A DNA stretch of 64,000 nt from Campylobacteraceae bacterium. Its GTDB lineage: Bacteria; Campylobacterota; Campylobacteria; Campylobacterales; Sulfurospirillaceae. Each line of letters starts with the position of its first letter. Position 1 is the first letter of the stretch. This document shows positions 7,964 through 10,588 of this stretch, in pieces. Made by a program: the position numbers and the translations under genes. The notes under the pieces were generated by a model that was given only the letters and a program-made list of their open reading frames with translations, did no database searches and was not told where the DNA came from. Where the stretch lies: NCBI GenBank assembly GCA_027050775.1, contig JALUBH010000046.1, positions 1 to 64,000 of the forward strand, written 5' to 3'.

Positions 7964-8506
7964 ATGAGTGACGAAAAAGATTTGTCTGAAAATATTGAAG
8001 AAGAAGTGATAGAAAATGAAGAAGATCAAGGCACTAATGACACAAATGAGGTAGAGATTCTCGATCAAAAACTTCAGGAGTGCGAAGATAAATATCTTAG
8101 GATTCATGCGGATTTTGAAAATATAAAAAGAAGAATGGAAAAAGAAAAAACCGTAGCTATTAGTTATGCTCACGAACAGTTTGCAAGAGATTTGTTGCCA
8201 ATCATAGACTCACTTGATATGGCACTAAATATTTGTGAAAATGATGAGTGTGATGTGGGCAATGATCTTTTGGATAAAGTCAAGGAGGGAATTGATTTAA
8301 CGATAGAGCAATTTAAAAAAACATTTGAAAAGCATGGAGTTGAGTTGGTTGATATCGAAGAAGGTTTTAACCCTAATTTTCATGAAGCAGTTATGCAATT
8401 AGAGAGTGATGAAAAAAAATCGGGCGAGATACTAGAAGTTTTTCAAAAAGGTTACAAGATAAAAGACAGAGTGCTAAGACCGGCAATGGTAAGCATAGTG
8501 AAATAA
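7964..8506 (+). CDS. grpE: Nucleotide exchange factor GrpE
   Basis: The 180-residue protein has an acidic N-terminal tail, a long coiled coil (about residues 25-75, including YLRIHADFENIKRRMEKEK) and the C-terminal beta domain with the family end signature IKDRVLRPAMVSIVK. GrpE dimers release ADP from DnaK in the DnaK-DnaJ chaperone cycle. It lies 2 bp after hrcA and about 200 bp before dnaK; the gap carries a structured repeat instead of the usual short spacer. Confidence 0.96.
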   Translation: MSDEKDLSENIEEEVIENEEDQGTNDTNEVEILDQKLQECEDKYLRIHADFENIKRRMEKEKTVAISYAHEQFARDLLPIIDSLDMALNICENDECDVGNDLLDKVKEGIDLTIEQFKKTFEKHGVELVDIEEGFNPNFHEAVMQLESDEKKSGEILEVFQKGYKIKDRVLRPAMVSIVK

Positions 8507-8576
8507 GTTTTTGGCACACAAGTTAATAGTGCAAGTTTAAAGTTAGTGCAACCGAAAGGTTGTGCTTTAGTAGAGC

Positions 8577-8693
8577 AGGGGCTTTGCTCCTGAACAAGAT
8601 GACAGTTAAATAGCTTTCTTGGCGCAAGCCAAAGCTTCAGTAGAGCGTGAATTGTTTAGGGGCTTTGCTCCTGAACAAGATGACAGTTAAATA
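8577..8693 (+). repeat. Structured direct repeat between grpE and dnaK
   Basis: A 36-bp unit beginning AGGGGCTTTGCTCCTGAACA and ending CAGTTAAATA occurs twice without mismatch, at 8577-8612 and 8658-8693 (period 81 bp). Each copy is preceded by a related AGTAGAGC. Both units can fold through AGGGGC / GCTCCT. Two further GNRA-like hairpins are present: CAACC-GAAA-GGTTG near 8549-8562 and TTGGC-GCAA-GCCAA near 8619-8632. No open frame is present. It could be a REP-like element, an RNA-processing site that sets the grpE/dnaK ratio, or a duplicated leader. Confidence 0.75.
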
Positions 8694-8710
8694 AAAATAA
8701 AGGATAAAAA

Positions 8711-10588
8711 ATGGGAAAAGTAATAGGTATAGATTTAGGAACAACAAATTCATGTGTTGCTATTTTTGAGCACGGAGACAGCAAAGTTATCCCCAATAAA
8801 GAGGGAAAAAACACAACTCCATCAGTTGTAGCATATACTGATAAGGATGAAGTCTTAGTAGGCGATACTGCAAAAAGACAAGCAGTTACTAATCCAAAAA
8901 GGACCATATACTCCATAAAAAGAATTATGGGTTTAATGTGTGATGAAGACAAAGCAAAGCAAGCAAAAGATAGATTGCCTTATGAGGTAGTAGATAGAAA
9001 TGGAGCTTGTGCCATAGAGATAGACGGTAAAGTTTACACTCCTCAAGAGATAAGTGCAAAAGTTTTGATGAAGTTAAAAGAGGATGCAGAAGCATTTTTG
9101 GGTGAGGATGTTACAGATGCAGTTATCACAGTACCGGCTTATTTTAACGACTCTCAAAGAAAAGCAACAAAAGAAGCAGGTGTGATTGCGGGCTTAAATG
9201 TACTAAGAATTATAAATGAGCCTACAAGTGCTGCTCTCTCTTATGGATTAGAGAAGAAACATGCAGAAAAAATTGTAGTTTATGACTTAGGTGGTGGTAC
9301 ATTTGATGTTACCGTGCTTGAGACAGGTGATAGTGTTGTAGAAGTTCTTTCAACTGGCGGTGATGCCTTCTTGGGTGGCGATGATTTTGATAACAGACTT
9401 ATAGATTATCTTTCAAATGAATTTAAAAAAGACAATGGCATTGATTTAAAAGGTGATGTCATGGCACTCCAAAGGCTAAAAGAAGCTGCTGAAAATGCTA
9501 AAAAAGAGCTTTCAAGTTCAACTGAAACAGAGGTAAATCTTCCGTTTATCACTGCAGATGCAAGTGGTCCTAAGCACCTTGTTAAAAAAATTACAAGAGC
9601 TAAATTTGAAGCACTTATAGAAGATTTGGTTGAAAAGACCATAGTAAAAATCAAGGAAGTTGTCAAAGATTCTGATTTGGATAAAAATGAAATCAAAGAG
9701 ATTGTCATGGTTGGTGGAAGCACAAGAGTTCCTTTAGTCCAAGAAAAAGTGAAAGAATTTTTTGGAAAAGATTTGAACAAATCAGTAAACCCTGATGAAG
9801 TTGTTGCTATCGGTGCTGCAATCCAAGGTGCTGTTATAAAAGGCGATGTAAAAGATGTATTATTACTAGATGTGACACCATTAAGCCTTGGTATTGAGAC
9901 TTTGGGTGGTGTTATGACTAAGCTGATAGAAAAAGGTACAACTATCCCTGTTAAAAAAACACAGGTTTTTTCGACAGCCGAGGACAACCAGCCAGCAGTT
10001 ACTATTCACGCTCTTCAAGGTGAAAGAGAGTTTGCCAGAGACAATAAATCTCTAGGACAGTTTAATCTTGAAAATATCTCTCCTGCTCCAAGAGGTGTGC
10101 CACAGATTGAAGTTGCATTTGATATAGATGCAAATGGTATATTGACAGTTAGCGCAACTGATAAAGCGACAGGTAAGATTCAAGAGATTAAAATCACCGG
10201 TTCAAGCGGACTAGATGAAAATGAAATAGAAAAAATGGTAAAAGATGCGGAGCTTCATAAAGAAGAAGATGAAAAAAGAAAGAAAACAGTAGAGGCTAGA
10301 AATCAGGCTGATGCACTTGCGCACCAAACAGAAAAATCTCTTGAGGAGATGGGTGACAAAGTTGATGCTAGTGAAAAAGCCAAGATAGAAGATGCTCTAA
10401 AGGCACTTAAAGATGTTTTAGCTAATGATTCTGCTACTAAAGAGCAAATTGATGAAAAAGTTAAGGCATTAACAGAAGTAAGCCATAAATTAGCAGAAGC
10501 TATGTATAAAAAAGATGATACCAAGGGTGCTGAACCTAAAAAAGATTCTAAAGAAGATGATGAAATCATAGATGCAGAAGTAGAATAA
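8711..10588 (+). CDS. dnaK: Chaperone DnaK (Hsp70)
   Basis: The 625-residue protein carries the Hsp70 signatures in order: [14 protein letters not shown] at residues 5-18, [15 protein letters not shown] near 190, and [20 protein letters not shown] near 335, then the substrate-binding domain, the helical lid and the acidic tail ending [10 protein letters not shown]. DnaK binds exposed hydrophobic segments in an ATP-driven cycle with DnaJ and GrpE. It is last in the heat-shock operon and is followed by a strong hairpin terminator. AGGAT (8701-8705) is the ribosome-binding site. Confidence 0.98.

Follow-up and report, generated by a model that had tools for sequence, protein, structure and literature searches.

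Sequence comparison places the repeat between grpE and dnaK in a large family of structured repeats, bound to start codons in Campylobacterales, of which it represents a single site. The repeat lies in a window, the whole stretch of DNA analysed, of 64,000 nucleotides. At most sites in its own genome and in others, the element contains or abuts a sense-strand Shine-Dalgarno (SD) word and a start codon. We favour, with somewhat better than even confidence, a dispersing two-hairpin repeat that inserts at gene starts and is retained there as a module which either adjoins the ribosome-binding site (RBS) or includes it.

The grpE-dnaK spacer covers positions 8507–8710 and, measured from the ORF ends, is 204 nt long, in agreement with the preliminary description; hrcA, grpE and dnaK were named by NCBIfam. 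The two 36-bp copies on which that description rested are 100% identical and constitute the sole direct-repeat family in 8300–8900. Their reported separation of 81 bp is a start-to-start distance, and the gap between them is 45 bp. The GNRA-tetraloop hairpins were likewise found, as AGTGCAACC-GAAA-GGTTGTGCT and TTGGC-GCAA-GCCAA (Table 1). The 36-bp copies are only the 3' parts of two units of about 75 nt. Unit 1 lacks 11 nt (GTGAATTGTTT) of the linker and of the 5' arm of the second hairpin that are present in unit 2, and the starts of the units in the covariance model are therefore 70 nt apart, against 81 nt for the 36-bp copies. The fold of the whole spacer beats those of shuffled sequences (z −3.5, 0 of 200 as good) and, at minimum energy, pairs one repeat with the other. 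When each unit is folded by itself, unit 2 forms both of its hairpins, H1 and H2, and unit 1 forms H1 and a shortened H2. Both units belong to the SD-less class defined below, and dnaK likely uses its own AAGGA, within a AAAGGATAAAAA stretch before the ATG that is also found in relatives with an empty site. The internal promoter that had been suggested for the spacer received no support from a scan of 8450–8760, which was confined to the simple sigma-70 consensus, with other promoter types outside its reach, and gave 0 matches with 0.7 expected by shuffling. A terminator scan of the same interval found none. Protection or processing of the dnaK message, which had also been suggested, would be compatible with the sequence.

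Table 1. Features of the grpE-dnaK region in window coordinates, and exceptions to the start-codon rule in the same genome (positions with a contig prefix).
Feature	Position	Strand	Basis
grpE, upstream gene	7964–8506	+	ORF; NCBIfam GrpE
Unit 1, SD-less class, 11 nt missing from the linker and the 5' arm of H2	8546–8609	+	Covariance model R1, 54.5 bits, E 4.8e-9; sequence
H1 of unit 1, GAAA tetraloop	8545–8566	+	Single-unit fold
Shortened H2 of unit 1	8576–8592	+	Single-unit fold
36-bp direct repeat, first copy	8577–8612	+	Repeat search
Unit 2, SD-less class, complete	8616–8690	+	R1, 92.7 bits, E 4.1e-18, the top match in this genome
H1 of unit 2, GCAA tetraloop	8619–8632	+	Single-unit fold
Linker of unit 2, conserved (GCTTCAGTAGAGCGTGAATT; GAATT preceded by T)	8634–8653	+	Alignment A1; sequence
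H2 of unit 2, 12 pairs, foot TT/AA overlapping the linker end	8652–8678	+	Single-unit fold; helix covariation in A1
36-bp direct repeat, second copy	8658–8693	+	Repeat search
SD-less tail GATGACAGTTAAATA of unit 2	8679–8693	+	Sequence; tail class
AAGGA, likely dnaK Shine-Dalgarno, outside the element	8700–8704	+	Sequence
dnaK, downstream gene	8711–10588	+	ORF; NCBIfam DnaK
Exception, between tRNA genes	C7:60871, C7:105365, C7:105638
Exception, facing contig start	C7:128
Exception, only a short ORF behind	C31:44213

The spacer, used as a DNA query, matched 30 places in its own genome and 23 of 41 genomes, its own included. The search for further copies that had been proposed was extended with R1, which gave 96 matches in the own genome at E ≤ 0.1 and 89 at E ≤ 0.01. 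These 89 units, which rule out local tandem duplication as the sole origin of the repeat, make up 57 clusters (32 single, 18 double and 7 triple) and are mostly spaced 80–84 nt within arrays. With strict filters (E ≤ 0.01), R1 matches 90 of 298 genomes and 28 of the 81 genera of the order. A draw of 249 genomes from the phylum, whose listing does not make the presence of other orders evident, contained 32 with a match at E ≤ 1e-4, all from this order. The exact SD-less pattern was found in 48 stretches of the GTDB collection, a search that may omit records of the own genome, and their titles name only Campylobacterota, Campylobacterales, Campylobacteraceae or Sulfurospirillum. Because the repeat is dispersed and multi-copy, the objection that there might be no other copies or conservation falls away. 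Searches against Rfam found nothing in the window, nothing in 8450–8760 even at E ≤ 10, and only a single tRNA in 16 unit-bearing loci. Two exact fused-class patterns had no match in the viral collection. No description of the family was recognised in a literature search of titles and the beginnings of abstracts that covered few subscription papers, so an earlier account may exist.

Units consist, in order, of H1 with its tetraloop, a linker GCTTYAGT-(4–7 nt)-GAATT, H2 and a tail, over about 75 nt. The alignment from which R1 was built (A1) comprises 64 of 67 rows found by regular expression, with L002:253 (partial), L082:2815 (false) and L023:69 excluded. In A1 the linker and tail are nearly fixed, and the stems vary yet remain paired: 86.7% of 1216 stem cells are paired, with changes on both sides in 262 cells. 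The covariance analysis that had been called for thus shows covarying stems, with a score of 0.566 versus 0.209 in shuffled alignments (0 of 500) and at most 0.195 with a slid partner. The number of pairs changed on both sides is 15, a value that 26 of 500 shuffles reach; since the units are related copies, the changes in the stems are not independent events. H2 is the better helix, with 93.9% of its cells paired versus 74.3% in H1, whose outer pairs often fail. Among 960 consensus-structure cells of A1, taken without a pairing filter, there are 76 G.U pairs versus 14 A.C mispairs, an excess that suggests folding of the mRNA-sense strand. The larger set of 220 distinct units has 161 G.T versus 33 A.C, a ratio that leans toward G.T because the set was filtered at no fewer than 7 of 10 pairs with G.T allowed. 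Folded singly, L167 forms both hairpins and L203 only H2, and L173 (the leuA unit) and L145 refold. Pairing of the H2 loop with the linker or H1, judged by eye, was set aside.

Several variants were seen beside the main family. One carries, in place of the 25-nt H2, a palindrome of about 70 nt (TGCCCATAAA..TTTATGGGCA) between GAGGAATC and AGGGGACA/AGGAGA; it occurs at several unrelated genes (L308, L309, L319, L332, L333 and L348) and, in the own genome (G000), upstream of the array at C31:27974 (L190). Half units, in which H1-GCTTTAGT is followed by an A/T-rich stretch that ends near TAGTAAT instead of by H2, directly precede a full unit in L175, L180, L189, L191, L198 and L205. Short frames (MKLYRASARALVARNFCGIHFRKKGTIK-like) whose TGA overlaps the ATG of the gene are frequent in fused units, as in the own genome at C28:58636-58877 (L189), C20:18134, C20:52975, C25:12769-13010 and C31:27974-28209.

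A same-strand SD and start codon lie just 3' of the element in 52 of the 57 own clusters, the start falling within −1 to +2 of the element 3' end in 40 of these 52, and none of the 57 has such a pair at the opposite side on the opposite strand. The rule applied requires that an SD-like word and the start codon of an ORF no shorter than 60 codons lie at −4 to +40 nt from the element 3' end, and is satisfied by 579 of 11400 random positions and 883 of 6780 random non-coding positions at the same loci. Positions were taken from the SD and start codon in place of the first gene calls, which mislabelled several starts. The five exceptions are listed in Table 1. Three of them are units in the spacers of two tRNA arrays (L161, L162), one on the tRNA strand and two opposite, and these are the only clear exceptions to the start-codon rule. 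In 29 other genomes, a start was found by the rule for 45 of 53 units and on the other side for 0; of the remaining 8, 3 precede a further unit and 5 have neither. The 53 are part of the loci supplied by the searches of other genomes, with L129 and L130 of the same genus (start 26 nt on; following unit) omitted. The downstream genes are unrelated, and those confirmed by NCBIfam include rpoZ, rplL, rplK, infA, guaA, leuA, aroC, glmM, mreB, purS, soxZ, purE, gcvH, pdxA, ddl, rbfA and nadC; hemN, mtn, argS, serA and ACT are names given by eye.

Two classes are distinguished by their tails. In the fused class, the tail (AAGGGGACA or AAGGAGA, with AAGGGG/AAGGAG) runs into the ATG and is therefore itself the SD, which makes the element belong to the region where translation is initiated. 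Tails of the SD-less class read AAGATGACA, AAGAAGACA or AAGAAAACA (AAGATG/AAGAAG/AAGAAA), and the gene, in the own genome, starts 12–31 nt further on with an SD of its own. The class is foretold on the other side of H2, where the base before GAATT predicts the second base of the tail in 215 of 220 distinct units (T with A in 116, G with G in 99, and five others), a correspondence that is not simple base complementarity. The same base goes with position: own clusters are G and fused (38), T and separate (9) or T and fused (1), the other 9 of 57 having no classified base or no called start, and other genomes have G fused in 23, T separate in 17, G separate in 3, T fused in 1 and one unclassified. 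One class has a resemblance to the SD in its linker (GAGAGGA, CGCGAGGA) as well as in its tail (AAGGAG, AAGGGG), and the other has it in neither. Further linker letters differ among variants (GAG, GCA, CGCG, AGMGYG), so a repeated origin of the T/A state is possible. At the level of DNA, the coupling can be read by analogy with IS200/IS605, as a guide 5' of a palindrome that would select a site 3' of it; at the level of RNA, it looks as if one partner read both linker and tail.

Occupancy differs between close relatives. At the grpE-dnaK site, a unit scored by R1 is present in 10 of 30 loci, the own included, from four genera. G003 and G004, in which a 180-residue stretch of DnaK is 99% identical to that of the window, have a 23-nt spacer with AAAGGATAAAAA before the ATG and no unit. 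A chosen subset of 20 of the 57 own sites was compared with five sister genomes, which gives 100 cells; of the 79 that were scored, 41 carry a unit and 38 are empty, the rest being not found or at a contig edge. Empty here means no R1 match, which diverged units can escape; four weak matches (E 0.0045–0.048) were left unused, and one of them (L339, rbfA of G003) could flip one empty cell. Sites most often filled are rplL (5/5) and infA, hemN and soxZ (4/5 each), and those found empty are ACT (filled in 0/4) and rbfA (0/3 scored). The number of units per site also varies among species. The leuA site has kept its native RBS and start on the 5' side of the element, and AATAAAATGAATAAT is found again on the 3' side. 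The grpE-dnaK spacers of G012, G015 and G018 (L268, L270 and L274) hold hairpins and GCTTTAG-like pieces that R1 leaves unscored, perhaps decayed or further variants of the element. Sister species manage without the element at the same genes, which counts against the favoured explanation.

Under the favoured explanation, the element would insert itself at the starts of genes, probably in the form of a folded single strand. The tail of a fused unit would rebuild the RBS, and an SD-less unit would leave it intact behind the hairpin. A stable hairpin upstream of the RBS could keep the SD free of pairing with upstream sequence, and it could also shield the 5' side of the downstream cistron. The element would be tolerated or kept because the RBS is rebuilt or left intact with a hairpin upstream of it. 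At some sites, loss from an ancestral state would look like insertion. As neither a general target duplication nor a partner enzyme was found, we infer insertion from presence and absence only.

A more committed form of this explanation can be held tentatively. It takes the element as a mobile translation-initiation cassette that folds as a single strand, the linker of which would be a guide that sets both the right end and the landing place, so that a version carrying the SD lands on start codons and an SD-less version lands upstream of an SD already there. Such a cassette would spread within a bacterial order by replacing or flanking RBSs, not by breaking genes.

A doubtful but serious alternative is that the element is non-autonomous and wholly selfish, of no function to the host, and is mobilised in trans by an IS200/IS605 or RAYT-type single-strand transposase. 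Location at gene starts would then reflect target choice together with the loss of inserts that do harm, and guide and cleavage site would be what is coupled across H2. Guides have precedents in IS200/IS605, with GAAT in IS608, and in REPs, with GTAG (PMC5934647 and PMC8266576). In the units GAATT abuts H2 and its preceding base foretells the tail; tandem arrays and presence/absence fit as well, although GAAT beside a hairpin can be chance. That mechanism also predicts no general target duplication, and none emerged over 43 fused places: prefixes match by 3.07 letters at the same site versus 3.12 across sites, the longest shared flank stretch shows a slight excess (7.6 versus 6.6 across sites), and stretches of at least 12 nt are shared in 4 of 43 same-site comparisons versus 2.1% of cross-site ones. 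Two places, leuA (AATAAAATGAATAAT on both sides) and C18:43174, have clear direct repeats, but target duplication was rejected as a general feature. Start-like [AG]TG[AG]A words occur in 16 of 43 flanks versus 8.1 in shuffles; with the shared stretches, this makes it possible that some flanks hold older copies or remnants.

The selfish alternative fares less well with regard to the enzyme. Over 41 genomes, Y1 transposases (PF01797) do not track the repeat: G003, G004 and G021 gave 20, 15 and 17 DNA matches but no Y1, and a DNA match is lacking in six g3 genomes that do have Y1. Among 12 Y1 loci searched with R1, a clear unit is present only at L093, about 0.8 kb from the Y1 gene, and no shared ends with the unit were shown there. 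The own genome has five PF01797 matches; no unit was found near the four that were searched. Y1 transposase-like genes of about 260–350 aa, with no unit nearby, stand at L206, L207, L208 and L209 in the own genome (L206 and L207 read). Target choice alone, moreover, hardly explains why one class has a tail that functions as an SD.

An element of RNA processing or stability, in which an endonucleolytic cut at the hairpins or a block of decay by H2 would raise the downstream cistron (dnaK over grpE, rplL over rplJ) and spread would be secondary, appears unlikely. Hairpins directly before single cistrons within operons, same-strand upstream genes in many clusters and the high occupancy of rplL, infA, hemN and soxZ in sisters are consistent with it. 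Against it stand the many other sites that are empty in sisters and a mixed set of genes that includes low-demand ones such as leuA, ddl and pdxA, and the coupling of linker and tail is left unexplained.

Leader-peptide cassettes, in which fused units encode a short frame whose TGA overlaps the ATG of the gene (ATGA) and so couple translation, are very improbable and were rejected as a general principle. An ATG- or GTG-started frame of at least 26 codons runs through that TGA in 19 of 49 own ATGA-ending units, including three consecutive ones ahead of purS and three that share a frame at C25:12769-13010; no such frame exists in the other 30, SD-less units end otherwise, and an open frame may be inherited by chance because the copies are related. 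A ligand-sensing, riboswitch-like leader, suggested by a linker that is conserved and unpaired and by stems that covary ahead of genes, is the least credible reading, disfavoured by the unrelated downstream genes, tandem arrays, presence/absence between sisters and the lack of an Rfam match.

If the element is indeed kept as a module at gene starts, dozens of genes, here including dnaK, rplL, infA and rpoZ, would be translated from or beside a repeat that varies between sister species. The evolution of RBSs via inserted modules would become open to testing, because filled and empty sites coexist in close relatives. Annotators would gain a family that marks start codons and is missing from Rfam, and the coupling of two blocks across a hairpin would call for an enzyme or RNA partner.

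Among known systems, the REP/MITE-like element that the preliminary description had put forward is the closest of its guesses; the dispersed, multi-copy and palindromic character of the repeat agrees with it, and the defining REP and MITE features that were tested do not. MITEs are short, non-coding, multi-copy and present or absent between relatives. The element is likewise short, non-coding, multi-copy and variably present, but its units have neither visible terminal inverted repeats nor a general target duplication. BOX, RUP, Correia/NEMIS, ERIC and Rickettsia palindromic elements are transcribable palindromic repeats near or in genes. We know of none whose 3' end is an SD fused to the start, as in the fused class described here.

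REPs are high-copy palindromic extragenic repeats that fold as single strands, have conserved letters 5' of the hairpin and are cleaved following a GTAG guide, according to PMC8266576. The element resembles the REP/REPtron system (TnpA-REP, RAYT) in being high-copy, palindromic and outside genes with conserved letters 5' of the hairpin; it differs in having two different hairpins per unit of about 75 nt, direct arrays, no GTAG foot, one orientation to start codons and no link to Y1. REPs conserve a tetranucleotide, mostly GTAG, at the 5' foot of the palindrome. In the units GTAG is absent from the hairpin foot: in SD-less AGTAG.. linkers it stands about 10 nt before the H2 foot, and fused linkers (CGCGAG, GAGAG) have none. 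No inverted, BIME-like pairs were found, the nearest opposite-strand neighbours (C7:105365/105638) being about 200 nt apart; all 25 multi-unit clusters are direct by the way clusters were joined. Membership in REP/RAYT was thus rejected on the GTAG, orientation and Y1 tests. In IS200/IS605, guides 5' of a palindrome choose the cleavage sites, and the right-end guide of IS608 is GAAT, as given in PMC5934647. A likeness to the ends of IS608, an element with TTAC and TCAA sites, lies in the hairpin whose guide-like letters on the 5' side are coupled with letters on its 3' side. The element departs from IS200/IS605 ends in that no transposase with element ends was found among the Y1 loci searched, and in being placed strictly at start codons.
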